From assembly GCF_020103725.1 (NCBI RefSeq), contig NZ_JAHXBG010000004.1, positions 186,001-250,000 of the forward strand: a stretch of DNA of 64,000 nucleotides, written 5' to 3'. Origin of the DNA: Hyalangium gracile (GTDB lineage: Bacteria > Myxococcota > Myxococcia > Myxococcales > Myxococcaceae). The notes under the pieces were generated by a model. The model had not been told where the DNA came from, searched no databases, and saw only the letters and a program-made list of their open reading frames with translations. How positions within the stretch are numbered: position 1 is the stretch's first letter; the number at the start of each line of letters is the position of its first letter. The translations under genes and the position numbers were made by a program. This document shows positions 35,668 to 49,371 of this stretch, piece after piece.

Positions 35668-36147
35668 ATGACTCCTTCACCTCCTCCGATTCCCGCCCCC
35701 CGTCCAGAGGACGTCGCCACCCCCGCGGCCATTGTCGCGGCGCTCTACGACGTCATCTCCGGGCCGAGGGGACAGGCTCGTGACTGGAACCGCTTCCGGT
35801 CCCTCTTCGCGCCGGGGGCGAGGCTGATCCCCTCCGGCAGGCGCCCGGACGGCCACACCGGCCACCGCGTGCTCACCCCCGAGGAGTACATCGCCCGGTC
35901 CGACAGGCTGCTCGCCGAGGAGGGCTTTCGGGAGCGGGAGCTCCACCGTCATGAGGAGCGCTTCGGCACGCTCGCGCACATCTTCAGCACCTACGAGGGC
36001 TTGCGCGACGGAGACACGAAGCCCTTCGTGCGAGGCATCAACAGCATCCAGGCGGTGCACGATGGCAAGCGGTGGTGGCTGCTGACGGTCGCATGGACGC
36101 CAGAGACGGCGGAGTACCCCCTGCCCTCGAAGTACCTCCGCCCGTGA
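35668..36147 (+). CDS. NTF2-like (SnoaL/DUF4440-type) protein
   Basis: A 159-aa single-domain protein with the alpha+beta cone pattern of NTF2-like folds: helix ATPAAIVAALYDVISGP, DWNRFRSLFAPGARLI, LTPEEYIARSDRLL, then beta strands with FVRGINSIQAVHDGKRWWLLTVAWTPE. Folds of this kind serve as ketosteroid-isomerase-like enzymes or ligand pockets; the sequence does not fix a function. No signal peptide is evident. It is tail-to-tail with yjbQ, with no spacer at all. Confidence 0.72.
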   Translation: MTPSPPPIPAPRPEDVATPAAIVAALYDVISGPRGQARDWNRFRSLFAPGARLIPSGRRPDGHTGHRVLTPEEYIARSDRLLAEEGFRERELHRHEERFGTLAHIFSTYEGLRDGDTKPFVRGINSIQAVHDGKRWWLLTVAWTPETAEYPLPSKYLRP

Positions 36148-36561
36148 TCAGCCCACGACGGAGACGGTGACGCGGCGCCGGTGCGGCGCGGTGCGGTGCT
36201 CCCACACGTAGATGCCCTGCCACGTGCCGAGGTCCGCCGCGCCGTCCTGGACGGGGATGGACAGCGAGTTCTGGGTGAGCACCGTGCGCACGTGGGCCGG
36301 CATGTCGTCCGGGCCCTCGGCGTCGTGCTGGAAGAGCGAGTCCCCATCCTTCACCAGGCGGGAGAAGAAGGCCTCCAGGTCCCTGCGCACGTCCGGGTCG
36401 GCGTTCTCGCAGAGGATGAGGGACGCGCTGGTGTGGTGCAGGAACACGGTGCACAGGCCCTGGCGGGCGCCGCTCTCCTTCACGGCGCGCTGCACCTCGG
36501 GGGTGATGTCGTGGAACCCCCGTCCCCGGGTGGACACCGTCAGCTCCCGTGAGTGGTACAC
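36148..36561 (-). CDS. yjbQ: YjbQ/UPF0047 family protein
   Basis: A 137-aa protein with the UPF0047 signature LCTVFLHHTSASLILCENADPDVRRDL and the second conserved block GTWQGIYVWEHR. The histidine and acidic residues form the conserved pocket. E. coli YjbQ has weak thiamine-phosphate-synthase activity; the physiological role is uncertain. It is the last gene of an apparent operon with the esterase (13 bases upstream) and the cyclophilin. Confidence 0.88.
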   Translation of the reverse strand: MYHSRELTVSTRGRGFHDITPEVQRAVKESGARQGLCTVFLHHTSASLILCENADPDVRRDLEAFFSRLVKDGDSLFQHDAEGPDDMPAHVRTVLTQNSLSIPVQDGAADLGTWQGIYVWEHRTAPHRRRVTVSVVG

Positions 36562-36574
36562 GGCGTGCGCCTCC

Positions 36575-37309
36575 TCAGCGGGCTTCCAGCCGCGCCACCA
36601 GGAAGTCCGCCATCCGCTTCAGTTCCTCGGGCGCGATGGTGTGCGGCCCATCGAAAGGTACGAACTCCACCCCCAGGCCGGCCTCCGTCAGCAGCTCGTG
36701 CAGGCGCTCGGCGGCCTGGAAGGGGAGGATGTCGTCATACCGCCCGTGGCCCTGGAAGACGGGCATGCCCTTGCGAGCCGCCGCCCGGGCCTTCCACTCC
36801 TCGCGGGCGATGAGCGTGCCGGAGAGGATGCACAGGCCGGAGGGAGGCTCCTCCAGGCGCAGCGCCACGTCGGTCGTCACCATGCCGCCCTGGCTGAAGC
36901 CGCCCAGCACGATGCGGCCGTAGGGCAGCCTCGTCGCGGCCGACAGCGCGGAGATGGCGCTCATCACCGCCCGGCGCGCGGCGGGGAGCCCCTCGGGCAC
37001 CGCGCGCGCGTACTCGTCCCAGTCGCGCTGGCGGCCCGTGAGCAGCTCCATGGGCAGGTGAAACCAGGCCCGGCTGGAGGGCATCCCCAGCTCCATCAGC
37101 GACAGGGGGGCCGCGGGGAAGACGAAGCGAGCCCGCTTCGCCAGCTCCGGGCGGAGCATCATCAGCTCGGCGGCCAGGGGCACCAGGTCGGTGGCCGGAG
37201 CCCCGTAGCCGTGGCACAGGAGGACGGCGAGCTCCGGCTCGGTGCCGGGAGGCAGGGCATCGACGACCTGGCAGTCCAGCTCGCCGAGCCGGGTGGAGAC
37301 GCGTCTCAT
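36575..37309 (-). CDS. Phospholipase/carboxylesterase family hydrolase
   Basis: A 244-aa alpha/beta hydrolase. The nucleophile is Ser in LGGFSQGGMVT, with the Asp in GRYDDILPF and His in FDGPHTIAPEE completing the triad. LLCHGYGAPATDL forms the oxyanion region. This matches the small carboxylesterases related to YpfH/EstB. It has no signal peptide, so it is cytoplasmic. It lies between the cyclophilin (7 bases) and yjbQ (13 bases). Confidence 0.88.
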   Translation of the reverse strand: MRRVSTRLGELDCQVVDALPPGTEPELAVLLCHGYGAPATDLVPLAAELMMLRPELAKRARFVFPAAPLSLMELGMPSSRAWFHLPMELLTGRQRDWDEYARAVPEGLPAARRAVMSAISALSAATRLPYGRIVLGGFSQGGMVTTDVALRLEEPPSGLCILSGTLIAREEWKARAAARKGMPVFQGHGRYDDILPFQAAERLHELLTEAGLGVEFVPFDGPHTIAPEELKRMADFLVARLEAR

Positions 37310-37316
37310 GGCGCGC

Positions 37317-38066
37317 CTACGGCTGCTTGTCGGAGATGGTGACCTTCTTGATTACCACCGGGGTGACGGGGGCGTTTCCGCCGCTGGTCGGCACCTTGGA
37401 GATCTTCTCCACCACGTCATAGCCCTTCACCGTCTCACCGAAGATGGTGTGGTGGTTGTTGAGCCAGGGCGTGGGCGCCACGGTGATGAAGAACTGGCTG
37501 CCGTTGGTGGCGGGGCCGCGGTTGGCCATGGCGAGGATGCCGGGCTTCTCGAAGGTGCGGCCGCTCTTGAACTCGTCCTCGAAGGTGTAGCCCGGGCCGC
37601 CGATGCCCTTACCGAGCGGGTCGCCGCCCTGGATCATGAACTTGGGGATGACGCGGTGGAAGATCGTCCCGTCGTAGAGTGGGCGCGTCGTCATCTGCAG
37701 GGTGGTGGGGTCCTTCCACTCCTTCTGGCCGGTGGCCAGGCCCACGAAGTTGGCCACGGTCTTCGGCGCATCCTTGGAGAAGAGCTTCACGACGATGGTG
37801 CCCTCGCTCGTGTCGAGGGTGGCGTAGAGGTCCTTGCCCTCCATCGCATCCTTCTGGAAGCCCGTCAGCTCGGCCTGGGCGGGCGGCGGGGGGGTGGTCG
37901 GGGGAGCGGGGGGCTCGGGGGGCCTGGCCTGCGGGGGCTCCGGAGGCTTCACCGAGGTAGCGGCGGACTCGGGAGGCTTGGCCTGGGTGGTCTCCTTCTC
38001 CTTGTCCTTGGAGCAGGCGGTGAGGGCGAGCAGCAACAGTCCAGTGGTCAGGATTCGGGTGCGCAT
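37317..38066 (-). CDS. Cyclophilin-type peptidyl-prolyl isomerase lipoprotein
   Basis: A 249-aa protein with a lipoprotein signal (LTAC, Cys18), a Pro/Glu/Lys-rich spacer (about 20-68) and a cyclophilin domain (about 80-247). The domain has the active-site segments FHRVIPKFMIQGGDP and ANRGPATNGSQFFIT. It should speed proline isomerisation during protein folding in the periplasm, tethered to a membrane. It leads the putative operon with the esterase and yjbQ. Confidence 0.93.
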   Translation of the reverse strand: MRTRILTTGLLLLALTACSKDKEKETTQAKPPESAATSVKPPEPPQARPPEPPAPPTTPPPPAQAELTGFQKDAMEGKDLYATLDTSEGTIVVKLFSKDAPKTVANFVGLATGQKEWKDPTTLQMTTRPLYDGTIFHRVIPKFMIQGGDPLGKGIGGPGYTFEDEFKSGRTFEKPGILAMANRGPATNGSQFFITVAPTPWLNNHHTIFGETVKGYDVVEKISKVPTSGGNAPVTPVVIKKVTISDKQP

Positions 38067-38148
38067 GGCGGGCGCATCCTAACGCCAAACCGGCGCGTTC
38101 GCTCGACTTTCTGTAGCATTTCCGGTGGTTTACGGTGGGCAAAGCCCG

Positions 38149-39678
38149 TCAGATGATCCACCCCCAGGGCTCATCGAAGTCCGGGGAGTTCCACTCCTGA
38201 AGGATGTTCTCGCCCTGGTCGAGCACGGCCTGGACGAGGGCGTCCACGTCCGCGCGGGTTGCGCGGTGGTTCACATTGCAGGCGCGGATGGCGAAGGCGC
38301 CGTTCACGATGGTCGAGGAGGGCACGGCCAGGCCTCGCTCCTGGACGCGGAGGAGGAGCTCCGTGTTGAGCCGATCGAGCTGCTCGGCCGGGAGGCCCTC
38401 TGGCCGGAACCGGAAGCACGCCACGTTGAGCGGCGCGGGAGCGAGGAGCTCGAGGCGGGGGTGCTCCTCGATCTTCCGGACGAGGTAGCGCGTCTGCTCG
38501 ACGTTCTGCTCGATGATGCGCGCGAAGAGCTCCACGCCGTAGGCCTTGAGACACATCCAGGCCTTGAGCGCCTTGAAGGCGCGAGTGAGGTCCACGCCCC
38601 GGTCCGAGAAGGGGAAGCCGCCCGCGCTGACGCCTCGGGGCTGCCGGGCGATGTAGCTGGGCGCGAAGGCGAACGTCCCGGTGTGGGCCTCCGGGTGACG
38701 GACGAGCAGGCACGCGATCTCGAAGGGGAGGTACATCCACTTGTGGAGATCGAAGGCCAGCGAGTCCGCGCGCTCGAGGCCCGAGAGGAGGGGCGCGAGC
38801 TTCGGGGACAGCCGGGCGAGGGCGCCGAAGGCCCCATCCACATGGAACCAGAGGTCCTGCTCCTGGCAGAAGTCCGCGAGCGCCCGCAGGTCATCGATGG
38901 CGCCGGTGTTCACGGTGCCGGCCGAGCCGACGACACAGATGGGCCGGTGCCCGGCGGCCCGGTCTGCGGCGACAGCGTCCCGGAGCGCGGCGACGTTCAT
39001 CCGGAACTGCGTGTCGACGGGGATGCGCCGCAGCCAGTCGGTGCCGATGCCGAGCAACTCGACGCCCTTCTGCACCCAGCCGTGCGTCTCGGTGGAGCAG
39101 TACACGGTGAGCCGAGGTCCGCCGCCCTGGAGGCCCTGCTTGCGCATGTCCATGCCGGACTTCGCGTGCCGGGCCACGGCCAGGCCGAGGATGCTGGCCA
39201 TGGTGCCGCCGGACTCGAGGACACCGCTCGCGTTCTCCGGGAAGCCCATCAGCGCCGCGAGCCAGGAGACGACCTTCTGCTCGACCAGGGCGGGGGCCTG
39301 GTTGAAGCCAGCCAGGTGAGGATTCATCCCGGAGGCGAGCATGTCGGCCAGCATCGCGAGCGGGATGCCGTTGCCCTGCACCCAGCCGAAGAAGCGCGGG
39401 TGGAGATTGCCATTGGGGTAGGGGAGGACGTTGCGGCGGAAGTCCTCGTAGGCCCGAGCCTCGCCTTGTGGGAGCCGCGGAAGGGGCTCGTTCAAGAGGT
39501 CTGTCTTGATGGAGTCGGGAACCTGTCTCCAGGCGGGCTGCTCGCGAAGGGTTGAGAGGTGGTCAACCATGTCATCGAGCATCCGATGCCCCAAGGCCCT
39601 GAAGTCCTCCCAGCTGCGGGGATCCAGGTTGAACTCTTGAGCGCTCGGACTCGCCACCTCATCCTTGTCACGCGCCAT
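38149..39678 (-). CDS. PLP-dependent group II amino acid decarboxylase
   Basis: A 509-aa enzyme. The PLP lysine is Lys313 in FDLHKWMYLP, with the upstream His in STETHGWVQKG and the Asp in WFHVDGAFGA that hold the cofactor. N-terminal blocks (HPRFFGWVQGNGIP, NQAPALVEQKVVSWLAALMGFP) are typical of aromatic, glutamate and sulfinoalanine decarboxylases. The substrate cannot be read from the sequence. ATG 39678 was chosen because MARDKDEV follows normally. It is divergent from the LuxR-type regulator and could supply an amine to the acyl synthase at 41782-42588; that link is inference. Confidence 0.88.
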   Translation of the reverse strand: MARDKDEVASPSAQEFNLDPRSWEDFRALGHRMLDDMVDHLSTLREQPAWRQVPDSIKTDLLNEPLPRLPQGEARAYEDFRRNVLPYPNGNLHPRFFGWVQGNGIPLAMLADMLASGMNPHLAGFNQAPALVEQKVVSWLAALMGFPENASGVLESGGTMASILGLAVARHAKSGMDMRKQGLQGGGPRLTVYCSTETHGWVQKGVELLGIGTDWLRRIPVDTQFRMNVAALRDAVAADRAAGHRPICVVGSAGTVNTGAIDDLRALADFCQEQDLWFHVDGAFGALARLSPKLAPLLSGLERADSLAFDLHKWMYLPFEIACLLVRHPEAHTGTFAFAPSYIARQPRGVSAGGFPFSDRGVDLTRAFKALKAWMCLKAYGVELFARIIEQNVEQTRYLVRKIEEHPRLELLAPAPLNVACFRFRPEGLPAEQLDRLNTELLLRVQERGLAVPSSTIVNGAFAIRACNVNHRATRADVDALVQAVLDQGENILQEWNSPDFDEPWGWII

Positions 39679-39812
39679 GCTGTCTCCGTGGGACTGCCGG
39701 CGCGGGACTCTCGTGCACCCCAGGGTCAATGGCCACCCGGATCTTGCGCTGCGTGGCCTGTATCCGAGGAGTGTTTAGCTGGCGCCGCCTGGGCACGCTC
39801 GGCATAAGTGTG

Positions 39813-39828
39813 AGATCCGGATGGATCT
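39813..39828. promoter_or_regulatory. Inverted repeat upstream of the LuxR-type gene
   Basis: AGATCC-GGAT-GGATCT has perfect 6-base arms 52 bases before the LuxR-type ATG (39880), in the 201-base spacer shared with the divergent decarboxylase. It is a possible autoregulatory site. It is shorter than a classic 20-base lux box. Confidence 0.35.
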
Positions 39829-39879
39829 TTTGAGGTGGTAGAAGGATGCCGGGCAGTGGGGCTGTGAGGAGGGTACGCT

Positions 39880-40971
39880 ATGGAGGGTCTGGGCGAGCGA
39901 TCGCTTGTGGAACTGATGGCGGTGCTGAGCAGCTCGCTGGACCTGAACGAAGTGCAGACGCGCTTTTACGAACACCTCTCCCGGCCCCTGGGCGCGGATC
40001 ATGCGGCCCTGTGCGTGTCCAAACCCGGACGTGCCCAGGACTACGACTGGATGGTGGCGCAGATACCGCAGGCCTTCTTCGCCCATTACTCCGAGCTGGC
40101 GGGCGAGGATTTCGTGCTGCGTTCCGTGGTGCGGCACCGCAACATGGTGCTGCGTGACTCCGAGATGGTGTCGCGCACCGAGCTCAAGCGCAGCCCCCTG
40201 TACGCGCACTGCCGGAACCTGGGCATGCCCATGGAGTACGTGATGGCGGTGCTGCTGGACCAGGGACTCGACTGGCATGGTGGCTTGACGTTGTACCGCG
40301 ACAGCCAGCGGCATCCGTTCACGGATGACGAGCGGATCTTCTTGCAGCGCTTGACGCCGATGCTGGCGAGCACGCTGCGCAACTGTCGGTTGCTGGGGAA
40401 GGTGGCCCAGAGCGGTCAGCTCCTGGAGGCGCTCTGCCGCCAGAACGACTTCGAGCTTGTCGTGCTGAACCCACCATCGACCGAGGTGATGCGCACGTCC
40501 CGGGCGACGGAGTTGCTCGAGAGGTGGTTTCTGCGCCTCGAGTGCAGTCACTCCGGCCTGCCGATCGCGCTGTTGGGGCAGCTGGGGCAGCTGGTGGCCA
40601 CGGGAGGGCCCGTGGTCTTCGGGCAGGACACGCTCGTGCGCGAGAAGGGGACGCGACGCCTGGTTACCACCTTCGTTCCGCTCCCTCCCCAGGACGGGAA
40701 GCAGCTCTGGGCCTTGGTGCTGCAGGAGTCCTCCATCATTCCGGAGAAGTGGCGCAAGCAACTGACCGAGCGCGAGGTAGAGGCGGTGGAGGCGGTGATG
40801 CAAGGCTGGGACAACCAGACCATCTCCAGCGAGCTGCAGTGCGCGCTCGACACGGTGAAGGTGCATCTGAGGCACAGCTACAGCAAGCTGGGAGTGGGCA
40901 GCCGGGCCAAGCTGATCTCCGCGGCCTCGGAGCTGAACGGGGAAATACATAGGTTGGGAGTGGGCGGGTGA
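39880..40971 (+). CDS. LuxR-type regulator with GAF-like sensor domain
   Basis: A 363-aa transcription factor. About residues 10-180 form a GAF-like domain of the kind found in non-canonical LuxR proteins (GADHAALCVSKPG, FFAHYSELAGEDFVLRSV, FTDDERIFLQRLTPMLASTL). The C-terminus (about 295-350) is a LuxR helix-turn-helix (LTEREVEAVEAVMQGWDNQTISSEL, TVKVHLRHSYSKLGV). It is not the canonical acyl-homoserine-lactone-binding domain, so its ligand is open. The ribosome site AGGAGGG lies 6 bases before ATG 39880. Position beside an acyl synthase suggests it responds to that product or controls its gene. Confidence 0.86.
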   Translation: MEGLGERSLVELMAVLSSSLDLNEVQTRFYEHLSRPLGADHAALCVSKPGRAQDYDWMVAQIPQAFFAHYSELAGEDFVLRSVVRHRNMVLRDSEMVSRTELKRSPLYAHCRNLGMPMEYVMAVLLDQGLDWHGGLTLYRDSQRHPFTDDERIFLQRLTPMLASTLRNCRLLGKVAQSGQLLEALCRQNDFELVVLNPPSTEVMRTSRATELLERWFLRLECSHSGLPIALLGQLGQLVATGGPVVFGQDTLVREKGTRRLVTTFVPLPPQDGKQLWALVLQESSIIPEKWRKQLTEREVEAVEAVMQGWDNQTISSELQCALDTVKVHLRHSYSKLGVGSRAKLISAASELNGEIHRLGVGG

Positions 40972-41005
40972 GCCGTCCTCCAGCTCACGCGCCCTCCCTT
41001 CGGGC

Positions 41006-41710
41006 TCAGGTCGCCAGGGTTGGATTCGCGCCCTCCTCCTCGGGGAAGAGGCTCAGGTAGAGAGCACGCGTGGTGCGGGCCGAGAGCAGGATGGCGGCCT
41101 GCTCCTCCGGCTCCTCCAGGGAGCGCAGCACCGTGGCCAGCTCGGCCACATGCTCGCCGTCCGCGCCCGCGTGCCCGCGCAGGAAGGTGACGGCCTTGTG
41201 GATGTTCGGGATGGCATTCCGAGCGAGCAGTCGCTCCACGGCCAGTCCCGCGCGATGGACGGAGAGGTACTCCAGGACATACGCCGTGCCGAGGAACGCG
41301 GTGGGGGTACCGGCCTCCGAGGTGAAGCGGTTCCACGCCACGTAGGCGGCCACCGAGGGGCGAAGCTCGAAGCGCTCCACCTGGTCGCGCGTCCACCCCA
41401 GGTTCTTCAGGTCCGCCAGGAGCCACCGCTCATGGCCCCGCTCCTCCGAGGCCTTCTGGAGCAGCAGCTCCGCGAGCACCGGGTAGCGCCCGAGCCGCTT
41501 CATCCGCTGGCCCGAGAGCGCCAGCAGCGGCGTCGTCCACCGGACGTAGTGGTACGTCTGCGCCAGCCACGCGGCATAGCCGTCCGTGTCGATGCTCCCG
41601 TCGAAGAGGCGCCGCGCCGCCGGGTGCGTGTCCAGGGTCTCCACCAGCGCACGGGCCTCGTGCTCCAGCGTGCTCGTCCAGTCCATCGGGTTCTGTCTCT
41701 GCGTCTGCAT
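41006..41710 (-). CDS. Haem-oxygenase-like iron enzyme
   Basis: A 234-aa all-helical protein of the iron-containing redox (haem-oxygenase-like, TENA/PqqC-related) group. Candidate metal ligands lie in QTYHYVRWTTPLLALSG, ASEERGHERWLLADLKNLG and HAGADGEHVAELATVL, giving the Glu/His pattern of haem-oxygenase-like diiron oxidases. Related enzymes make terminal alkenes, cleave amino acids or modify fatty acyl chains. The substrate is unknown here. ATG 41710 has AGGAGA six bases upstream. It follows the acyl synthase gene by 71 bases on the same strand, with a hairpin between, so the two are probably cotranscribed. Confidence 0.78.
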   Translation of the reverse strand: MQTQRQNPMDWTSTLEHEARALVETLDTHPAARRLFDGSIDTDGYAAWLAQTYHYVRWTTPLLALSGQRMKRLGRYPVLAELLLQKASEERGHERWLLADLKNLGWTRDQVERFELRPSVAAYVAWNRFTSEAGTPTAFLGTAYVLEYLSVHRAGLAVERLLARNAIPNIHKAVTFLRGHAGADGEHVAELATVLRSLEEPEEQAAILLSARTTRALYLSLFPEEEGANPTLAT

Positions 41711-41724
41711 GTACGTCTCCTGTT

Positions 41725-41744
41725 CGGGACCGTCGCCGGTCCCG
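41725..41744 (-). promoter_or_regulatory. Hairpin between acyl synthase and iron enzyme genes
   Basis: CGGGACC and GGTCCCG form a perfect 7-base stem with a 6-base loop. It lies just upstream of the ribosome site of the 41006-41710 gene. No T-run follows, so it may lower downstream expression or stabilise the processed message rather than terminate. Confidence 0.4.
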
Positions 41745-41781
41745 CTCGAGTGGGGTGAGGGTGAAGGGGAGAGGGTGCTGC

Positions 41782-42588
41782 TCAGGCGGCGCGGGGGGCG
41801 CCAGCCTCCAGGGCATCGAACAGGGCCAGGGTATTGGCCGGGATCTCATCCAGCGCGGCGATCAGCGGCATGGAGAAGCGTCGGAAGTGGGAGTCGTAGT
41901 GGGGCTCACCGATGAAGCGAGCGCCCATCCGGTGCGCGAAGAGCGCCAGGGGCCGAGGCATCCGCAGGCCGTCGAGCTGTCCCGCGCGTGCACGGGCGCG
42001 CGCCGAAGGGGAGTAGAGCTCGGCGCTGGGGCTGGCGGGTGGCGCCGGGTGCTCGCGAGGCTGCACCTTCCAGCGCTCGCTCACCCACTTCTTGTGCGCG
42101 GCCAGCTGGAAGACGAGGGAGGCGTCCTCGGCCGAGTCGGTCTCCGTGTTCGCGGAGGCGATCCAGTGCGTCACTCCGAGGCGTCGGCTCTCCTGATACA
42201 GGCCGGCCTGCAGGTGGACGAGCGCCTCGGAGTGGCGCCATTCCTTGAGGATGCAGAAGCGAGTGCTCTCGGCGAGCTGGATTCCCGGTCCTCCTACTCC
42301 CGACAGATCGAGCTTCTGCTCCAGGGCAATGCCGAGGGGGGCGCCGGTGGACTGGGCCACCTCGGGGCTGGGAAGCAGCAGGCGGGAGGTGGCCACGGGC
42401 CGGGAGCCCGCGTACACGACGAGGTGCACGGTGGTGTCCAGGGTGTCGAAGCAGTCCACCTCGCGGGGGGCCGCGGGCAGTGGGCCGTCGATGAGCCGCA
42501 GCTCTTCGCCGAAGACGGCCCAACGAACGCGGAGCGCATCGTCGAGCTGACGTTGGGTGGTAGCAACCAGGCAATACACGGGCGTCAC
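41782..42588 (-). CDS. LuxI/FeeM-fold N-acyltransferase (autoinducer-synthase-like)
   Basis: A 268-aa GNAT-fold protein whose first 115 residues carry the LuxI-family pattern at almost the same spacing: Arg22 and Phe26 (RWAVFGEEL), Glu43-Asp45-Asp48 (REVDCFDTLD), Arg69 (GSRPVATSRLLLP) and Glu107/Arg110 (AESTRFCIL). These residues bind S-adenosylmethionine and shape the acyl pocket in acyl-homoserine-lactone synthases. FeeM-type N-acyl-amino-acid synthases share the fold. The C-terminal half is longer than in LuxI (about 190 aa in most) and has RMGARFIGEPHYDSHF. The start is GTG 42588 with GGAGGAGAGG upstream. It is plausibly a synthase of an acylated amine or amino acid that acts as a signal. 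Confidence 0.75.
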   Translation of the reverse strand: MTPVYCLVATTQRQLDDALRVRWAVFGEELRLIDGPLPAAPREVDCFDTLDTTVHLVVYAGSRPVATSRLLLPSPEVAQSTGAPLGIALEQKLDLSGVGGPGIQLAESTRFCILKEWRHSEALVHLQAGLYQESRRLGVTHWIASANTETDSAEDASLVFQLAAHKKWVSERWKVQPREHPAPPASPSAELYSPSARARARAGQLDGLRMPRPLALFAHRMGARFIGEPHYDSHFRRFSMPLIAALDEIPANTLALFDALEAGAPRAA

Positions 42589-42741
42589 GGGTCCTCTCCT
42601 CCAGAGGGCACATGGGTGAGTACGGAAATGGAGCGACGAGAGATGGACGGAGCGCGCGCGGGCACGCTCCGCCCGAGAGGGCGCGGTTCATGGCCGCGGC
42701 CCTCTTGCTCTCTTCGTCGTCGGACCCGAATTTCGTGGGAA

Positions 42742-43458
42742 TTATTTCTGCTTCGTGAAGGACACGTGATCCACGTACACGCCCTTGGGCGCAGCGTCCT
42801 TCAGGGGTAGGTCCCTCTTCAGCGCCTCCATGGCCCAACCCAACTCGAAAGGCTGGGTCGAGTAGAGCGCGTAGACGTCCTCGCGGCCGAGGGTGCCGTC
42901 CAGGATGATCTCCACAGGCAATCGCGGCTGGAGCGCATCGAAGGGGACCGCTTCCTTGCCGTCGTAAGGGTGGTAGACGCTGACGACACCTTGGGCGTTC
43001 CTGCTCAGCACCGCGACGAAGCCGCTCGCTGCGGCGCGCACCTTGAAGTGCAGGGAGGTCTCGGGTGCCAGCGGCACGTCGGGAGAAACCGGGACGAAGC
43101 TGCCGTCGGAAGCTACGTAGAACAGCGTGAGAATCACCGAACCCTTCGCGGTGTACGGACTGGAAGGGAGCGGGCGTACCAACCAGACGGCTGTCGCGGC
43201 GAATGCGGGAACGAGCAGCGCGAGCCACATCCATCCCCCCGACCGCCAACGTTTCTTCTGGAGACGCTCCACGATGGTTCGGGAGGGGTGCTGGAGGAGG
43301 ACCGCGGCCGAGTCCGCGCGCAGCTCCGCCAGGCGCTGCTGGTCCTTGGGCGAGCGCTCCAGTGTGGCTTCCAGGCGCGTCCTGGCCTCGGCCTGGAGTG
43401 AGTCCGTGAGATAGCGCTCCAGCAGTGCATCCGGGATGCGTCTCGTTCCTGTCGTCAT
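42742..43458 (-). CDS. Anti-sigma-like membrane protein with DUF4384-like domain
   Basis: A 238-aa single-pass protein. A helical cytoplasmic part (about 1-70; IPDALLERYLTDSLQAEARTRL) resembles the sigma-binding region of anti-sigma factors but has no His-Cys-Cys zinc motif. One membrane helix follows (about 76-96, WMWLALLVPAFAATAVWLV), then a beta-rich outer domain (about 105-215; LHFKVRAAASGFVAVLSRNAQG) similar to DUF4384-type modules. The start overlaps the ECF sigma stop (ATGA at 43455-43458) with GAGGAGG upstream, the standard sigma/anti-sigma layout. Confidence 0.78.
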   Translation of the reverse strand: MTTGTRRIPDALLERYLTDSLQAEARTRLEATLERSPKDQQRLAELRADSAAVLLQHPSRTIVERLQKKRWRSGGWMWLALLVPAFAATAVWLVRPLPSSPYTAKGSVILTLFYVASDGSFVPVSPDVPLAPETSLHFKVRAAASGFVAVLSRNAQGVVSVYHPYDGKEAVPFDALQPRLPVEIILDGTLGREDVYALYSTQPFELGWAMEALKRDLPLKDAAPKGVYVDHVSFTKQK

Positions 43459-43997
43459 GGAGAAGCCTCCTCGAGCCGGGAACTACGCCTGCGGGCGCGC
43501 TCGGCGAAGTCGCGAAGCAGGTCCGCCACTTGCTTACGGTCGAGATCCAGGATCTCGCCCACCTCCGACTTCGTATGTCCCTCCACGAAGTGGAGGACCG
43601 CGGCGGTGAGCACCTGAGGAGACTCTCCCTCGGTGAGCAGCGCCAGGTCTCTCAGCGCCTCGACTCGCGACAGTCCTCCTTCGTGTGACGTGGCCCACGA
43701 GCCTGGGCGCCCATCGTCGTCCTCCGATGGCTCGAGCGAGCCCAGGACGCCGGACCAGCGGGCGTTTCGGCGCAGCCGGTCCACCGCTTTGTAGGTGGCC
43801 ATCTGGTAGAGGACGGTGAAGGCAGAGGCTTCACCGCGCAGGGACGCCTGGGTGCGCATGTACGCGAGGAACGTGTCGTGCGTCACATCGAAGGCCTCCT
43901 GGTCGTCTCGAAGCAGCGCACGGGCGCGGCGGTGGATGGTGGGCCCGAAGCGCCGGTACAGCGCATCGAGCGTGTCGATCTGTGAGTGAGCGAGCAT
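43455..43997 (-). CDS. ECF RNA polymerase sigma factor
   Basis: A 180-aa sigma factor. Region 2 (about 10-85) is seen in YRRFGPTIHRRARALLRD, AFDVTHDTFLAYM and LYQMATYKAVDRLRRN. Region 4 (about 120-172) is seen in SPQVLTAAVLHFVEGHTKSEVGEILDLDRKQVADLL. An acidic linker separates them (PSEDDDGRPG). It lies between the Kelch gene (51 bases) and the anti-sigma-like gene (4-base overlap), so one operon is likely. Its targets may include the divergent caspase-WD40 gene; no matching repeated promoter motif could be confirmed by eye. Confidence 0.88.
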   Translation of the reverse strand: MLAHSQIDTLDALYRRFGPTIHRRARALLRDDQEAFDVTHDTFLAYMRTQASLRGEASAFTVLYQMATYKAVDRLRRNARWSGVLGSLEPSEDDDGRPGSWATSHEGGLSRVEALRDLALLTEGESPQVLTAAVLHFVEGHTKSEVGEILDLDRKQVADLLRDFAERARRRSSRLEEASP

Positions 43998-44048
43998 GTC
44001 CTGCCGTGGACTGGGAGCGAGTACCTGAGGGGAACCAATCGGCCGGAG

Positions 44049-45863
44049 TCAGGGCTGATACAGCTCCGCGCTGCTCAGGGGCGTACTGCCGTTGCGTCCT
44101 CCAACGATCAGCACTTCTCCCGTGCGAAGCAGGGTCGCTGTGTGCCGGGTGCGAGGCGTCGCCATGTTGTCGGTGGGGGTCCATGTGCCTGAAACCGGGC
44201 TGTAGACCTCCGCGCTTGCGGCAGCCTGGTCGTTGCGCCCCTCTCCACCGACCACCAGCACGGCGCCCGATGGCAACACCGTGACCGAGTGAGCGCTGCG
44301 GCCGATGCTCATCTTGGAGATGCCAGGGGTCCACGCCCTCGTGTCAGGATCGTAGATGACCGCGATGGTCTGTGTCGTCTTGCCGTCATCCCCGCCCATC
44401 AGCAGGACCCGGTTCGAATGCAGCAGGACGGCCCTGTGCGCGAACACCCCCGCGCTCAGCTCTCCGGGCACGGGCGTCCAGGCACCCGAGTCCTGCGCGT
44501 ACAGCTCCGCGCTGGCGAGATTGCCATTGCTGGAGACACCGCCCACGACGAACACTTCGCCAGACGGCAGCAGGACCGCTTCGTGATAGAGGCGCTCGGA
44601 CGACATGTTGCCGGTGCTCGACCAGCTGCCTTTGGCAGGATCGTACACCTCCGCGCTCGCGAGCTTGTTATCGGAGGCGTCCTCTCCGCCGGCGAACAGC
44701 ACCTTCCCTGAAAGGAGCGCGGTGGCCGTGTGGTGCTGCCGGCTGGTGAGCATGTTGCCCGCGGGCTCCCAGGTGCCCGTGTCCGGGTCATACAACTCGG
44801 CGCTGGACAGAACACCTTCCTCGTTCTCACCTCCCGCCACCAGCACCTTTCCAGAGGGGAGCAGGGTGGCCGTATGGTGATGACGGCCAGTCTTCATGGT
44901 GTCGGTGGGTGACCAGGTGCGCGTGGTGGGGTCGTAGAGCTCGGCCTCGGCGAGACTTCCACTCGAGTCCACTCCCCCAGCGACCAGCACCTTGCCCGAG
45001 TTCAGCAGGGTGGCCGTATGGCCTTCACGGCCTTTGACCATGCTGCCCGTGGGCACCCAGTGGAGCTGGGCATTCGTCGCGACGGTGGCTGCAGGAGTCT
45101 CGAGCTCTTTTCGGACGCGTATCCGCTCCTGCTCGAGGACGCGCCCTACTGGAGGGGAACTCACCACGGGCGTCTTGATATCGGGGAACAACTTGAGCGC
45201 CTCACGAAAAGCTTGCGTGGCTCGGGCTTTTTCGTGCTCCCCCGTGATGGCGTTGAGGACTCCTTCGTAGAGGGTCAAGGTGACGCGTTGTTCGTCGTGC
45301 CGGACAAAGGGTTTGGCCTCCTCGACGTTCTTGAAGCAGGCGTCATACTCCCGGTTCTCGATGCACCGGTCGAGTTCGTCCTTGGCATTCCCGAAGTTCT
45401 TCTGCACGTGGCCGCGGATGGGGGGGACAGAGAAATCCTGCATGGAGGACTCTCGTGGATAAGTGCCCGCGTTGACGTCTGCCTGTGCCTGTTCGAACTC
45501 ACGCTCCACCTCGGGGGAGATCGATGTCTTCGTCGGCAGCTTCGCCCGGGGAGACAGAAACAGCGCTTTTCGAAAGGCAGCGGCAGCGCGAGCCTGGTGT
45601 TGGTACCCCAGGCTCGCGAGCACGAGCCCTTCATAGAGGGCCACCGTGGCGATCTGCTGCTCTCCCTTGGCGAGCTCCCTCGCTTGTCCCAGGCTCTTCA
45701 GTGCCTGGTCGTATTCCTTGGTTTCGAAGAGTTGCCTGCTTTCGTTGATGGCGGATTCGAAGGTTGCCTGGGGCTGGGCCTGGGCCTGGGCGGCAGGAGC
45801 GTTCATAAGTAAGAGCAACCCACTGGCTATGACGGCTGGGACGTGACGTAATAGGTAGTCCAT
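44049..45863 (-). CDS. Exported TPR-Kelch repeat protein
   Basis: A 604-aa protein with a signal peptide (cleavage near AQA, about residue 28). A TPR-like helical region occupies about 35-255, in two similar halves (EYDQALKSLGQARELAKGEQQ and REYDACFKNVEEAKPFVRHDEQ). Seven Kelch repeats follow (about 275-604, each with HTATLL, GKVLVAGG and AELYDP elements), which should close into a seven-bladed propeller. It is probably periplasmic or at the cell surface, where the propeller binds a partner. It heads the ECF operon and is divergent from the caspase-WD40 gene, with 103 bases between start codons. Confidence 0.85.
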   Translation of the reverse strand: MDYLLRHVPAVIASGLLLLMNAPAAQAQAQPQATFESAINESRQLFETKEYDQALKSLGQARELAKGEQQIATVALYEGLVLASLGYQHQARAAAAFRKALFLSPRAKLPTKTSISPEVEREFEQAQADVNAGTYPRESSMQDFSVPPIRGHVQKNFGNAKDELDRCIENREYDACFKNVEEAKPFVRHDEQRVTLTLYEGVLNAITGEHEKARATQAFREALKLFPDIKTPVVSSPPVGRVLEQERIRVRKELETPAATVATNAQLHWVPTGSMVKGREGHTATLLNSGKVLVAGGVDSSGSLAEAELYDPTTRTWSPTDTMKTGRHHHTATLLPSGKVLVAGGENEEGVLSSAELYDPDTGTWEPAGNMLTSRQHHTATALLSGKVLFAGGEDASDNKLASAEVYDPAKGSWSSTGNMSSERLYHEAVLLPSGEVFVVGGVSSNGNLASAELYAQDSGAWTPVPGELSAGVFAHRAVLLHSNRVLLMGGDDGKTTQTIAVIYDPDTRAWTPGISKMSIGRSAHSVTVLPSGAVLVVGGEGRNDQAAASAEVYSPVSGTWTPTDNMATPRTRHTATLLRTGEVLIVGGRNGSTPLSSAELYQP

Positions 45864-45966
45864 GAGCCGATGCTATGAAGAATGCAGGAGCGCGTCCACC
45901 CCTCGCGAGAAGGGTTGGCCGCTGCGGAGAAGAACACCCGGTGGATTCAGCGGTGGGAGAGCACAC

Positions 45967-48900
45967 ATGAGGGCCCAAGCGTTCTGGGGGCTCTTTCTGC
46001 TCACCTTCCTGCTCTCTGGGAATGCGCTCGCAGCCAATCGCCTGGCGGTGGTCGTGGGGGCCAACAAGGGTTCGACGGCGGATCTCCCGCTGCAATACGC
46101 CGAGGAGGATGCTCGCCGAGTCGGTGCCGTCCTCACCGAGCTGGGAGGTTTCGCCGCCGAAGATGTCGCGATCCTCAATGGACCAGACGACAAGCGCCTT
46201 TTCGAGAAGCTGGACGAGGTGGGGAAGAAGCTCGCCGGTGCTCCCGCGGAGGGCAGCTTGTTCGTCTTCTACTATTCAGGCCATGGGGATGCCGAGCAGC
46301 TGCACCTGGGCGGAACTTCGGTGCCCTTGGACAAGCTGTACCATCGCCTGCGTCAGCTGCCCGCGAAAGTGAAGGTGGGAATCATCGACGCCTGCAGGAG
46401 CGGCTCCATTCTCGCCACCAAGGCAGGGCGCCGCGGCACCTCGTTCGGCGTCAGCATGACCGATGAACTGAACGCCACGAGTTCCGAGGTGAGTGGCACC
46501 GTCTTTCTGACCTCCTCGGGAGAGGACGAACTGTCGATCGAGGTTCGTGCGCTCAAGGGCTCGTTCTTCACGAACCACCTGGTGAGCGGACTCCGCGGCG
46601 TGGCGGATAGCAATGGCGATAAGCAGGTCAGCCTCGAGGAGGTGTACACCTACGCCTACGAGCAGACGGTCCGCGACACGATCGATGCGCCCGCTGGCGC
46701 GCAGCACCCGTCCTATAAGAAGGAGCTGAAGGGACACGGCAACCTCTATCTCGCGGCGTTGCCGGCCCGCTCGAGGCTGCAGTTCCCAAGTGGAAGCCAG
46801 CGTTGCTACGTCACCTCGTCGGACGAACTCCAGCTCGTCGCGGAGGTGATGGCGAGGCAGCAGCGCAGCACGGAACTCGCACTTCCTCCGGGGAACTACC
46901 TGCTCAAATGCCGCGAGGACACGACGCTCAAGGTGGCGTCTTTTCGGGTCAAGGCAGGAGAGGCAGTGGACACCACCCAGCTGTCCTTCAACCAGCAGAA
47001 GCCCTTCTCGGAGGGGGTGCTCAAAGGGGCTCTGGGGAGGCTGGACAAGCTCACCGCGATCAACTTGATGCGTGATGCCAGGCAGATACTGACCTCGGAT
47101 CCCCAGAACATGGACCGCGGAGTGCTGCTCGCCGTGCAGTCGCTGAAGGTGAATCCGTCTCCAGAAGCTCATCAGGTCCTCGTCCAGGGACTGGAGCAGC
47201 TGCCTCGCTCCAAGCTCTGCTTCAGCCACGACGCTCCCGTGCTCGCTGCCGCGTGGAGCCCGGACGGGGAGCGCCTGGCCACTGTGACCTCGGGCAATGT
47301 CGTCCGCGTCTGGAGTCTGAAGACTCGTGAGACGCTCGCCGAGCTCTCCCTCGACGGCAAGGTGAAGGAGCTGGCCTGGCGCAAGGATGGAACACGCCTC
47401 ACCCTTCGAGACCCCGAGAGCAGGGTCATGTACTGGGACGTCAAACCGGGGCAGCGGGATTCGCATACGCAGAAGGAGAGTGCTCTCTACGCTGTCGCCT
47501 TGGATCCCACAGGCGTGCATGAGGCCCTCATGGATCCGGGCGAGGCGCTCCTCCTCAGAAGGCAGTCGGACGGCGTTGGGGTGCTGCGAGAGAGTTCCAT
47601 GCGGCCGACCGCGCGCTTCAGCGCGAATGGACGGTTCCTGGCGGCCATGAGCATCTCTGGCCGGGCGCGGGTCTGGGAGGTGGGCACCTCCTGGAAGGAG
47701 GAAGTGGCTGTGAAGCCCTTCGAGTCGTCCTCCAAGGCCATGCTGGCCATCGGTCCTGACAGCAGGTTTCTGGCACTGGGGCAGGAGGGGGAAAGAACGG
47801 TGCAGGTCTGGGATGTACCCGGTGCGCGCCAGACCTCGCCTCTGAATCATGATGGGCCCGTCACCGCCCTGGCCTTTGCTTCAACCATCAGCCTGCTGAC
47901 CGCGAGCGAGGACAAGACAGTCCGGCTCTGGGAATCAACCACGGGACACGAACTCCGCCGGTTGTCTCACGAGGCGGCGGTCAACTCCATGGCTGTCTCT
48001 TTGGACGGACAGTGGCTGGCGACCACGTGGCAGGAAGGAAGCGCGGCCGCTCTCTGGAACCTCCGCACCGGCATCCAGACGCGGCTGAGCCATGGTGGCG
48101 CTGTGACGGCTGTCGCCTGGAGCCCTCGTGAGGAGCGGGTGGCCACAGCCAGCGAGGATGGAACGGCTTGCGTGTGGGAAGTCCCCAAGGCGGAGGTGGC
48201 ACGGGTGACGAGCCTGGGCCAACACACGGGCATGGTCTTCGCCCGGGGAGGACGGCTTCTGGTGATCGCCAAAGCGGCTGAACCCACCTGTATCCTGGAT
48301 GCTTCCACTGGCAACAAGCTGGCGTGCCTGAACGACTCAGAGGGGGCACACCTCCTCACGGTCAGCCCGGATGGAAAGCGCCTGGCCACCGCGTCAGGAA
48401 CTCTTGCGCGGGTGTGGGATGCGTCTTCGTCAAAGGAGGTCTCCCGCATGCAGCATGAGGGCTTCATCCATGCCCTGGAGTTCAGTCCGGATGGCGCTCG
48501 CATGGCGAGCGCGAGCCGGGACGGGACGGTACGGCTCTGGGATGCAACCACGGGACGCGCGTTGCCATGGGGGATGAAGCATGAGGGGCCCGTGAAGACC
48601 GTGGCCTTCAGCGGGGACGGCAAGCGTCTGGCCACGGGAGGGGAGGACACGACAGCCCGTGTCTGGGATGTGGAGACAGGCAAGGAACTGCTCAAGCTGG
48701 CGCACCCGGCCTTGTCCTGTGATGAGCCCATCGGGGTGGCGCAGGAGTCCTGTGAGCAGCCGCACATGGCAGGCACCCCCGCGGCGGTGGAGTCCGTGCG
48801 CTTGAGTCCTGATGGACGGCGTCTGGCCACCGCGACCCTGGATGGTGTGGTACGGCTCTGGGACACCCAGAGTGGGAGGCTGGTGCTGGATCAGCCCCAG

Positions 48901-49371
48901 GCCACGCGCATCCGGAGCATGGTCTTCACCCCGGACGGCCAGGGGCTGGCCATCGCCAATAGCGAGCCCGTGGTGAGCATCTGGGAGGCGGAGACTGGAC
49001 GAGACCTGCCTTCCGTGGAGGCGCAGGAGAGCATCTCCTTCCTGGAGTACAGCCAGGATGAGAAGTACCTGCTGACTCTGAGCGAGAAGGGGACGGTGAG
49101 CGTCTGGGAGGCGGGTTCTCGAGTAGAGATCTCTCGGACCTTGGAAGGAGTGAGTACGCACCCCCCTCTCCTCAGCCCGGACGGCCAGTTCCTGGCCACC
49201 GTGCATGATCCGGGCACCGGGAGAGGTCTGACCTACTCCATCCACTCCTGGCGTACGGAGGACCTCATCAAGAAGGCCTGCGAGCGCCTCGAGCGTAACT
49301 TGAGCCAGGAGGAGTGGAACTCACACGTGTTGGAGAAGAATTACGAGAAGACGTGCGCGAATCTACCTTGA
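45967..49371 (+). CDS. Exported caspase-like peptidase with WD40 propellers
   Basis: A 1134-aa protein. A Sec signal peptide (MRAQAFWGLFLLTFLLSGNALA) is followed by a C14 caspase-like domain (about 24-260) with the catalytic dyad His106 (FYYSGHGD) and Cys143 (IIDACRSG). A linker domain (about 265-410; RCYVTSSDELQLVAEV, PGNYLLKC) leads to about a dozen WD40 repeats (about 415-1100; AAAWSPDGERLATV, VVRVWSLKTRETL and relatives), probably two propellers. ATG 45967 was chosen for the signal peptide and a GGTGGGAG upstream; the frame is open to 45862. Bacterial caspase-WD40 proteins are usually cytoplasmic; an exported one is unusual. It would cleave after basic residues if it behaves like other metacaspase/orthocaspase relatives. 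Confidence 0.88.
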   Translation: MRAQAFWGLFLLTFLLSGNALAANRLAVVVGANKGSTADLPLQYAEEDARRVGAVLTELGGFAAEDVAILNGPDDKRLFEKLDEVGKKLAGAPAEGSLFVFYYSGHGDAEQLHLGGTSVPLDKLYHRLRQLPAKVKVGIIDACRSGSILATKAGRRGTSFGVSMTDELNATSSEVSGTVFLTSSGEDELSIEVRALKGSFFTNHLVSGLRGVADSNGDKQVSLEEVYTYAYEQTVRDTIDAPAGAQHPSYKKELKGHGNLYLAALPARSRLQFPSGSQRCYVTSSDELQLVAEVMARQQRSTELALPPGNYLLKCREDTTLKVASFRVKAGEAVDTTQLSFNQQKPFSEGVLKGALGRLDKLTAINLMRDARQILTSDPQNMDRGVLLAVQSLKVNPSPEAHQVLVQGLEQLPRSKLCFSHDAPVLAAAWSPDGERLATVTSGNVVRVWSLKTRETLAELSLDGKVKELAWRKDGTRLTLRDPESRVMYWDVKPGQRDSHTQKESALYAVALDPTGVHEALMDPGEALLLRRQSDGVGVLRESSMRPTARFSANGRFLAAMSISGRARVWEVGTSWKEEVAVKPFESSSKAMLAIGPDSRFLALGQEGERTVQVWDVPGARQTSPLNHDGPVTALAFASTISLLTASEDKTVRLWESTTGHELRRLSHEAAVNSMAVSLDGQWLATTWQEGSAAALWNLRTGIQTRLSHGGAVTAVAWSPREERVATASEDGTACVWEVPKAEVARVTSLGQHTGMVFARGGRLLVIAKAAEPTCILDASTGNKLACLNDSEGAHLLTVSPDGKRLATASGTLARVWDASSSKEVSRMQHEGFIHALEFSPDGARMASASRDGTVRLWDATTGRALPWGMKHEGPVKTVAFSGDGKRLATGGEDTTARVWDVETGKELLKLAHPALSCDEPIGVAQESCEQPHMAGTPAAVESVRLSPDGRRLATATLDGVVRLWDTQSGRLVLDQPQATRIRSMVFTPDGQGLAIANSEPVVSIWEAETGRDLPSVEAQESISFLEYSQDEKYLLTLSEKGTVSVWEAGSRVEISRTLEGVSTHPPLLSPDGQFLATVHDPGTGRGLTYSIHSWRTEDLIKKACERLERNLSQEEWNSHVLEKNYEKTCANLP

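Follow-up and report, generated by a model that had tools for sequence, protein, structure and literature searches.

A conserved N-acyltransferase, diiron enzyme, and LuxR unit of myxobacteria as a candidate chemical signaling circuit

Among the closest described systems to the locus that we analyze here are the FeeM N-acyl amino acid synthases (PF21926), with the exosortase-associated acyltransferases (TIGR03694), and LuxI/LuxR quorum sensing. The initial annotation of this DNA held that myxobacteria are not known for classic acyl-homoserine-lactone (AHL) signaling, a statement that needs qualifying. According to a published study, E. coli expressing AgpI of Archangium gephyra or VitI of Vitiosangium produces AHLs, and AgpI is a 210-aa LuxI-class AHL synthase for which no receptor was found in its genome (PMC7862692). 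In a published survey, BLAST is reported to have detected homologues of CAI-1 synthase and of LuxR. Like AgpI and VitI, the synthase described below is a myxobacterial GNAT-fold enzyme of autoinducer type, but it belongs to a different, widespread family without PF00765 and with a linked LuxR.

The window, a stretch of 64,000 nucleotides from Hyalangium gracile, carries four open reading frames between 38149 and 42588, on the strands and in the order given by the initial annotation, and Pfam assigns them to PF13444 (Acetyltransf_5), PF14518 (Haem_oxygenas_2), PF00196 (GerE), and PF00282. The proposed synthase, a predicted FeeM/LuxI-fold N-acyltransferase of 268 aa (41782 to 42588, minus strand), is followed 71 nt downstream on the same strand by its probable operon partner, a heme-oxygenase-like diiron oxidase/oxygenase (HDO) of 234 aa (41006 to 41710). 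A LuxR-type regulator (39880 to 40971, plus strand) is convergent with both and lies 34 nt past the HDO gene; an iron enzyme behind the synthase and a LuxR-type regulator facing the pair had both been correctly recognized. Divergent from luxR is a group-II pyridoxal phosphate (PLP) decarboxylase (38149 to 39729, minus strand; PF00282, 211.9 bits), for which an in-frame ATG at 39678 is a likelier start than 39729. Two further genes directly upstream of the synthase had been missed, namely, those for an ECF sigma factor (43455 to 43997, minus strand; PF04542, 31.6 bits; TIGR02937, 47.8 bits) and a putative anti-sigma factor (42742 to 43458, minus strand). The latter has a hydrophobic segment and a weakly DUF4384-like C terminus (18.9 bits; cut-off, 27), and its matches to anti-sigma models are weak. 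Neither sigma-70 promoters nor intrinsic terminators were found in 39500 to 44100.

On its predicted model (pLDDT, 87), the synthase has the FeeM/AHL-synthase fold and is nearest to FeeM. It exceeds the cut-off for PF13444 (30.9 bits; cut-off, 22.4) and falls just below that for FeeM PF21926 (26.2 bits; cut-off, 27), and all 17 family members scanned match both models at E < 0.01, the best PF21926 match having an E value of 8.4e-8. When the model was searched against known structures, as had been proposed for the LuxI and FeeM families, VIA-align ranked FeeM (2g0b_C) first (Z 16.0; rmsd, 2.7; 168 aligned), ahead of RpaI (Z 13.9) and a plain GNAT (Z 13.8); FeeM alone stands clear. Sequence searches of solved structures gave only weak GNAT matches and one ribosomal-protein row (E 0.6), PADLOC matched neither the synthase nor the HDO, and a scan of named genomes yielded 3 loci. 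The common fold notwithstanding, the synthase is longer than the listed FeeM chains (170 to 189 residues) and is partnered with an HDO, a LuxR, and a sigma factor, and we noticed no exosortase context.

The HDO matches PF14518 (61.6 bits; cut-off, 28.9). Its closest solved chain is the uncharacterized PDB entry 3dde (E 1.5e-16), with UndA at an E value of about 1e-3. Judged by sequence, it carries the full three-His/three-carboxylate diiron ligand set, E90-x2-H93, E147, and H180-x3-D184-x2-H187, kept in 83 to 85 of 85 sequences (E90, 85; H93, 85; E147, 84; H180, 84; D184, 83; H187, 85). The corresponding ligands of AetD are D76-x2-H79, E140, and H172-x3-E176-x2-H179 (PMC10654658). The HDO has PF14518 and the 3H/3C ligands in common with UndA, AetD, BesC, SznF, and CADD, and its short ligand spacings are those of AetD, but it is paired with an N-acyltransferase. 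Outside the phylum, homologues appear in 25 plasmid records. In the thermostable-hemolysin/AMP-binding/HDO/SDR operons of Alteromonas and Variovorax plasmids, an HDO of about 28 to 29% identity likewise sits beside acyl-handling enzymes; however, these operons have another acyltransferase family (PF12261 in one tested) and an extra adenylating enzyme and SDR, and no LuxR is annotated in the two regions examined.

The regulator contains a GerE helix-turn-helix at residues 294 to 348 (PF00196, 51.8 bits; cut-off, 23.5), the region also covered by its single weak PADLOC match. It is preceded by a GAF/autoinducer-binding-like N-domain (about 1 to 177) and a middle domain (about 181 to 285) whose secondary structure suggests a PAS-like fold. 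In the predicted model (pLDDT, 82), residues 2 to 172 match CepR2 (Z 17.3) and LasR (Z 16.5) ahead of the best plain GAF domain (Z 14.9), so that the ligand domain is nearest in predicted fold to AHL receptors, although it may be a GAF domain of other function. By sequence, the N-domain leans weakly to GAF, and the ligand domain alone gives weak GAF matches only. The autoinducer-binding domain PF03472 was found neither in the LuxR of the window nor in any of 17 LuxR members at E ≤ 0.1. A possible correspondence of W57, Y70, and D77 to AHL-contacting residues of LasR/TraR was considered and set aside.

Comparison across the phylum establishes that the synthase, the HDO, and the convergent LuxR are a real conserved unit, beyond chance. 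The concern that this gene set might be absent as a unit from related genomes is not borne out, since synthase, HDO, and LuxR recur together in 69 of the 95 places with a full-length synthase (21 fragment or marginal rows being excluded by hand count). The HDO lies directly downstream in 84 places, once as a remnant (L098), and is missing there in 11; a convergent LuxR is present within 2.6 kb in 73 and missing in 22. By row count, one and the same set of 61 genomes, out of 195 from the phylum, contains the three families, and one further genome has the LuxR family without synthase or HDO. Because the genes are linked, some of this joint inheritance is to be expected, and all 61 genomes belong to one family. 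Where genomes carry two full copies (17 genomes), the pairing of synthase and LuxR was alike in 116/116 informative comparisons, 20 of the 136 in total having been set aside. The two synthase-LuxR pairs of these 17 genomes are intact and apparently insulated.

The unit also has a companion operon. A dedicated ECF sigma factor, an M78 peptidase (PF06114, with a capP-like score), and a middle protein that gave no family match in searches occur in the same 56 genomes, all within the 61 with the module, and the set is absent from every other genome searched. The operon is often divergent from the synthase and is joined in many places by a HerA helicase. M78 peptidase switches of the IrrE/ImmA/CapP type and HerA helicases belong to bacterial defence and damage responses. 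The companion operon shares M78, the capP-like score, and HerA with such systems, but here the M78 operon is paired with an ECF sigma factor and a LuxR/N-acyltransferase module. It was not found in the genome of the window, which, like the other four of the remaining 5/61 genomes, has a different ECF sigma factor beside the synthase. Relatives of this second sigma factor lie upstream of the synthase in 8/95 places, the window included (two on the opposite strand), and some of these relatives also have the anti-sigma gene adjoining the sigma gene. By row count, this type occurs in 36 of 195 genomes, 19 of them without the module. We rejected it as a general partner; with 8/95 synthases, it is a side-branch.

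Two promoter motifs are shared by these loci. A palindrome, first spotted by eye in 16 synthase and 15 luxR upstreams, occurs at luxR promoters and sigma promoters of relatives. With at most 2 mismatches, it is present at 36/39 sigma promoters beside a synthase and at 16/20 away from an intact synthase (0.05 expected), the latter being hand-picked from search rows and including at least 2 loci (L207 and L208) that adjoin broken synthase copies. Among held-out luxR upstreams, from which the original 16 + 15 and relatives of >85% identity were excluded, 22/34 carry it with at most 3 mismatches (2.35 expected). Control windows from the same loci, true sites included, gave 109/2820 at ≤2 and 240/2820 at ≤3 mismatches. 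In synthase upstreams, the palindrome with at most 2 mismatches is found in 24/39 with the sigma gene in the flank and in 0/54 elsewhere, and it thus belongs to the loci that carry this sigma gene. In a separate set of 38 nonredundant synthase upstreams, one was too short to count.

The second motif is an ECF-like element, CGMACT-N14-CGAA, which in its strict consensus precedes the synthase in 77/95 places, or 77/87 without and 0/8 with the window-type sigma factor. With looser spacing, it occurs at 32/39 sigma promoters beside a synthase and 14/20 away from an intact one. A conserved RNA structure preceding the synthase gene was considered and rejected in favor of the promoter-like element, given 3 predicted pairs and little covariation, and Rfam gave no match at gathering scores in 36000 to 46500. 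The window departs from this pattern. Its synthase upstream lacks the strict consensus and has a variant, CGAAAT-N13-CGAA (42713 to 42735, minus strand), as the counterpart. There is no good palindrome at its luxR or synthase promoter; the degenerate luxR-promoter counterpart (39761 to 39776) has 5/12 mismatches by hand count and was not scored as a site, the best candidate, with 4 mismatches, lying elsewhere. Since the window lacks a good palindrome and the strict element, and its genome lacks the usual sigma operon, the circuit is documented mainly for relatives.

We propose, at about even confidence, that these genes form a LuxR-coupled biosynthetic circuit with a positive loop, probably intercellular. 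Here we infer the substrates, product, and chemistry, the binders of the motifs, and the binding, diffusion, and signaling role of the ligand. Like FeeM, OlsB, and AHL synthases, the GNAT enzyme would N-acylate an amino acid or amine, with acyl-ACP or acyl-CoA as the donor of the chain. The HDO would then oxidize this N-acyl compound or the amine portion of it; hydroxylation, desaturation, and oxidative decarboxylation to an enamide are examples of such a step. The oxidized product would bind the ligand domain of LuxR. LuxR would act at the palindrome, which precedes both luxR and the gene of the dedicated ECF sigma factor. This sigma factor would fire the ECF-type promoters both of its own operon, with the M78 peptidase, the middle protein, and in many places HerA, and of the synthase-HDO operon, closing a positive, quorum-like loop. 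In the five genomes that include that of the window, another ECF sigma factor, accompanied in the window by an anti-sigma gene, lies beside the synthase instead. Such a circuit would resemble LuxI/LuxR quorum sensing in the fold superfamily of its synthase, in an adjacent LuxR whose ligand domain has the same predicted fold, and, in relatives, in a luxR-promoter palindrome. It differs in lacking PF00765 and PF03472, in its longer regulator, and in the diiron enzyme in the operon, and an ECF sigma factor seems to be interposed between LuxR and synthase.

Alternatively, the product might be an N-acyl metabolite or lipid, such as an antibiotic or surfactant, made under stress control, with LuxR and the sigma factor sensing something else and no signaling involved. 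We regard this as possible, at well below even confidence. FeeM and OlsB relatives produce lipids, the LuxR N-domain is GAF-like in sequence, and an IrrE-like M78 peptidase, often with HerA, in the sigma operon fits a stress or DNA-related response; furthermore, characterized HDOs are mostly natural-product enzymes, to go by the accessible part of a published account (PMC13108848). Against this reading, no further biosynthetic gene stands beside the unit at comparable frequency in 21 wide loci (11 examined in full), the LuxR copies are paired as strictly as the enzymes, and the fold of the LuxR N-domain is nearest to AHL receptors.

An OlsB-like synthesis of ornithine-lipid-type aminolipids, with the HDO hydroxylating the lipid, seems unlikely. 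The best NCBIfam matches of the synthase are indeed OlsB models (27.4 and 25.7 bits), and it is 28% identical to an OlsB-like acyltransferase of Variovorax; its sole plasmid match outside the phylum is from Variovorax as well (27% identity). However, the synthase remains far under the cut-offs of these models (350 and 320), whereas the Variovorax protein scores 169 to 175, and the LuxR/sigma pairing and the patchy 61/195 distribution fit a signal or metabolite better.

We consider it very unlikely that the synthase is a true SAM-using AHL synthase with a diverged LuxR receptor. The eight LuxI-family residues on which the initial annotation was based (Arg22, Phe26, Glu43, Asp45, Asp48, Arg69, Glu107, and Arg110) are all present in the window protein, and BjaI, RpaI, MesI, TofI, and LasI are among its structural matches. 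Seven of the eight are kept family-wide, but Asp45 occurs in only 12/95, and in the BLAST alignment the OlsB-like acyltransferase shares 7/8, all except Glu43. Hence, the pattern does not discriminate LuxI. The label of a LuxI-fold synthase likewise holds for the predicted fold, shared by FeeM and AHL synthases, but not beyond it, as PF00765 gave no match at E ≤ 1, the match to the AHL-synthase model NF052393 reached 17.2 bits (cut-off, 250), and AHL synthases tie with plain GNATs in a comparison led by FeeM. Moreover, we know of no LuxI locus that includes an HDO partner.

Finally, a four-gene locus in which the divergent decarboxylase supplies the amine, as originally framed, is hardly credible and largely refuted as a conserved feature, since the adjacency is seen in the window only: the decarboxylase adjoins the module in 0/23 relative loci with flanks, and in 12 decarboxylase loci (about 1.5 kb of flank each) its orthologues lie elsewhere, with luxR adjoining only in the window's own, so that we rejected it as a module member and treat it as a neighbor.

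In conclusion, the module looks like an undescribed chemical signaling circuit of social, predatory myxobacteria; a limited literature search found no description of a synthase-HDO-LuxR module. The unit, a sigma factor confined to module genomes among those searched, and the common promoter motifs make it a testable candidate for a native signal. Because the HDO sits in the operon, this signal is probably of a new chemical class. Domain searches may also miss LuxR receptors that do not match PF03472; one search of this kind found no LuxR receptor in A. gephyra (PMC7862692). Conceivably, and we put this forward tentatively, the module is a family-wide myxobacterial chemical language, in which an HDO-oxidized N-acyl amine or amino acid would be the diffusible ligand of a new LuxR subfamily and would act via a dedicated ECF sigma factor driving its own synthesis as well as the co-inherited operon of M78 peptidase, middle protein, and HerA, possibly as a population-wide alarm or defence signal in response to DNA damage, phage, or prey DNA.

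All four genes that the initial annotation combined into one signalling locus (38149-42588) are present: a GNAT-family synthase (41782-42588, minus strand; Acetyltransf_5 PF13444, 30.9 bits against a cut-off of 22.4; FeeM PF21926, 26.2 bits against 27), a haem-oxygenase-like diiron enzyme of the Haem_oxygenas_2 family (HDO; 41006-41710, minus strand; 61.6 bits) and, by family assignment, a LuxR/GerE regulator (39880-40971, plus strand) and a group-II PLP decarboxylase (38149-39729, minus strand). The decarboxylase has to be dropped from the locus, as it adjoins the module in none of 23 loci, and luxR was found in only 1 of 12 decarboxylase loci, namely the window's own. Missing from that locus was a putative anti-sigma and ECF sigma gene pair (42742-43997, minus strand), which adjoins the synthase on its 5' side and is read in the same direction. 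The stretch 43455-49371 holds the ECF sigma, the putative anti-sigma and, at 44049-45863, a kelch-repeat protein whose N-terminal part is TPR-like; a divergent long protein (45862-49371) resembles, by eye, a caspase-type peptidase with WD40-like repeats.

The remaining three genes do recur as a unit. Among 195 genomes of the phylum, the synthase profile matched in 64; by row count, 61 hold strong or partial copies and all belong to the window's own family, the other three being marginal and located elsewhere. The HDO profile matched in 66 genomes, strongly in the same 61 and weakly in five others, and the LuxR profile (E<=1e-40) in 62, the same 61 plus G033. Synthase-free relatives such as G002 and G041 showed no strong HDO or LuxR matches either. 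The family of the window was assigned from its relatives, among them named loci in Archangium, Myxococcus and Pyxidicoccus. Flanks were fetched for 95 full-length synthase places, window included: at 84 the synthase is followed immediately by a co-directional HDO (one a remnant), 73 have a LuxR in convergent orientation no more than 2.6 kb away, and 69 have both. At one locus (L047) LuxR is on the same strand. Two of the 11 places without an adjoining HDO (L129 and L141) have HDO and LuxR about 4 to 5 kb past the synthase, as though an insertion separates them. One genome (G005) has a lone synthase, with HDO and LuxR adjoining each other elsewhere, and another (G004) shows the same split next to a complete second module. 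Broken synthase copies (G057:C8, G159:C324, G142:C816 and G151:C1:6420920-6421404), some near the system's HDO, LuxR or sigma, suggest that second copies decayed repeatedly. Over the 70 loci with all three genes, distance correlations are 0.935 for synthase and HDO and 0.883 for synthase and LuxR. Seventeen genomes carry two complete modules. Of their 136 genome pairs, 20 were set aside, and in all 116 informative ones synthase and LuxR agree on which copies correspond; linkage accounts for part of the pairing signal.

The predicted LuxI fold was upheld in part. The first Foldseek matches of the synthase model (pLDDT 87) were the AHL synthase BjaI and FeeM, but VIA-align placed FeeM first (Z 16.0) and the AHL synthase RpaI (13.9) on a par with plain GNATs (at most 13.8). 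Likewise, of the eight residues read as LuxI-family, all but D45 (kept in only 12 of 95 synthases) hold family-wide: R22, D48, R69, E107 and R110 in all 95, F26 in 94 and E43 in 89 (Asp in six). Their specificity for LuxI did not hold, since a Variovorax protein that is OlsB-like (OlsB models give it 175 and 169 bits, under their cut-offs) has, when aligned by BLAST, every one of the eight except E43; the pattern thus marks a wider N-acyltransferase group. Against AHL-synthase models the window synthase scores far under the cut-off. It is best read as an N-acyltransferase that would take an acyl chain from acyl-ACP or acyl-CoA to an amine, and that resembles FeeM rather than LuxI.

Profile searches with the HDO gave a match to 3dde at E 1.5e-16 and a weak one, at E about 1e-3, to UndA, a fatty-acid decarboxylase. 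Residues E90, H93, E147, H180, D184 and H187 are each conserved in 83 to 85 of 85 sequences. These putative ligands come in the same order and with the same short spacings as D76, H79, E140, H172, E176 and H179 of AetD, according to an excerpt of PMC10654658, and they fit the 3H/3C ligand set in an excerpt of the HDO review (PMC13108848). A working dimetal site is likely on these grounds, the reaction not being deducible from sequence. Alteromonas and Variovorax plasmids (L090:5726-9559 and L091:5888-9568) carry a thermostable-haemolysin/AMP-binding/HDO/SDR operon with an HDO about 28-29% identical to that of the window; the "thermostable haemolysin" there better fits a biosynthetic acyltransferase than a toxin. 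The Variovorax sp. PDNC026 plasmid (L089:4976-8762) carries an HDO gene and, in the same direction, genes for what looks by eye like a methyltransferase, for a protein with weak ATP-grasp similarity and for an OlsB-like member of Acetyltransf_5, and is an independent link between HDO and the N-acyltransferase family of the synthase.

For the N-terminal domain of LuxR, PF03472 gave no match among 17 members, which showed weak GAF matches instead, and a sequence search with the domain alone returned GAF proteins only, weakly. The nearest solved structures are the AHL-receptor domains of CepR2 (Z 17.3) and LasR (16.5), with plain GAF domains at 14.9, which supports a predicted small-ligand sensor, the ligand not being named by the structure match. 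LuxR is the sole full-length match to its profile in the window's genome; a partial relative lies elsewhere (G000:C1:535734-536366; profile positions 148-357, ligand domain outside the match).

Across the flanks of 21 wide loci, one operon recurred, in most cases oriented divergently to the synthase. In one locus (L035:9274-14485) it encodes an ECF sigma factor of 215 aa, an M78/IrrE-like-domain protein of 364 aa (also capP-like), a protein of 393 aa without family match and a HerA-type ATPase of 767 aa. This operon, which other loci have at the corresponding position, is a strict companion of the module by genome and might itself serve in defence or in the response to DNA damage. Its genes were seen, in that order, in the fetched flanks of 39, 36, 36 and 28 of 95 places, counts limited by flank length. 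Genome-wide searches for the sigma (E<=1e-20), for the M78 protein (E<=1e-30) and for the no-family protein (E<=1e-20) each gave 56 of the 195 genomes; compared by hand, the three sets are identical and fall wholly within the 61 module genomes. The other five (the window's, G000, plus G020, G053, G155 and G160) each have a relative of the window-type ECF sigma adjoining the synthase, so that every module genome has one of the two sigma types. Both types are found in G006, G139 and G150, with the window-type one beside another synthase copy.

A palindrome, TACCNCTNNAGNGGTA, was first noticed by eye. With up to three mismatches, it marks 30 of the 49 non-redundant upstream regions of luxR, where about 3.0 would be expected, and 16 of the 37 of the synthase, against about 2.15. 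With the sequences inspected by eye and their relatives removed, it was still found in 22 of 34 luxR (2.35 expected) and 9 of 22 synthase upstreams (1.03 expected). At up to two mismatches it precedes 36 of 39 companion sigmas near a synthase; of those with no intact synthase nearby, 16 of 20 have it against 0.05 expected, or 11 of 14 when redundant sequences are removed. At this threshold, synthase upstreams have it in 24 of 39 cases with the companion sigma in the flank versus 0 of 54 otherwise, which assigns the palindrome to the promoters of luxR and of the sigma gene. When the pattern was relaxed slightly, seven genomes gave 0 to 8 matches each, overall no more than a control pattern did, and 9 of the 34 places, assigned from coordinates, are at module promoters. 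The window contains no good palindrome. In G020, a genome without the companion operon, luxR is nevertheless preceded by a perfect palindrome, which suggests that LuxR is the protein that binds it. In Archangium lansingense, a second family LuxR lies near the module (G125:C1:2423105-2425040), and about 0.8 kb beyond its end comes a third exact palindrome.

A second element, CGMACT-N14-CGAA, lies at -60 to -95 before the synthase at 77 of 95 places, and was recovered in 12 of 22 held-out sequences and 0 of 4400 shuffles. It is present at 77 of 87 synthase places without the window-type sigma versus 0 of 8 with it. If the spacer may vary from 13 to 15, the element also stands upstream of the companion sigma, at 14 of 20 loci away from an intact synthase (0.07 expected) and at 32 of 39 near a synthase; in the latter, both genes share one intergenic stretch and their counts are not independent, so the 20 loci of the first group are the cleaner test. 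Being absent with the window-type sigma and present before the companion sigma, the element is a good candidate for the promoter of the latter, which would then be autoregulated. A variant is found in the window (42713-42735). Between element and start codon, at about -60 to -35, several loci (L038, L040, L041, L093 and others) have a short GC-rich hairpin-like repeat upstream of the synthase, with no clear covariation.

A search of the open-access literature for the synthase-HDO-LuxR unit by itself found no description of it. The nearest publications are the paper on AgpI (PMC7862692), a member of a different family from the module synthase, and a survey of Myxococcaceae signalling (PMC7694542). 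The computation itself establishes the unit, the folds, the metal-ligand set, the co-occurrence and the motifs, and from these the substrate, the reaction, the LuxR ligand, the protein that binds each motif and diffusion of the product are inferred. The main rival explanation holds that the module is a metabolite pathway and that its LuxR and sigma regulators sense something else; we consider this possible, if rather doubtful. The two motifs are most simply accounted for by a circuit in which the product, perhaps after diffusion, would act on LuxR, LuxR on the sigma factor and the sigma factor on the synthase; to this circuit as a whole we give an even chance, less confidence than to the enzyme classes.
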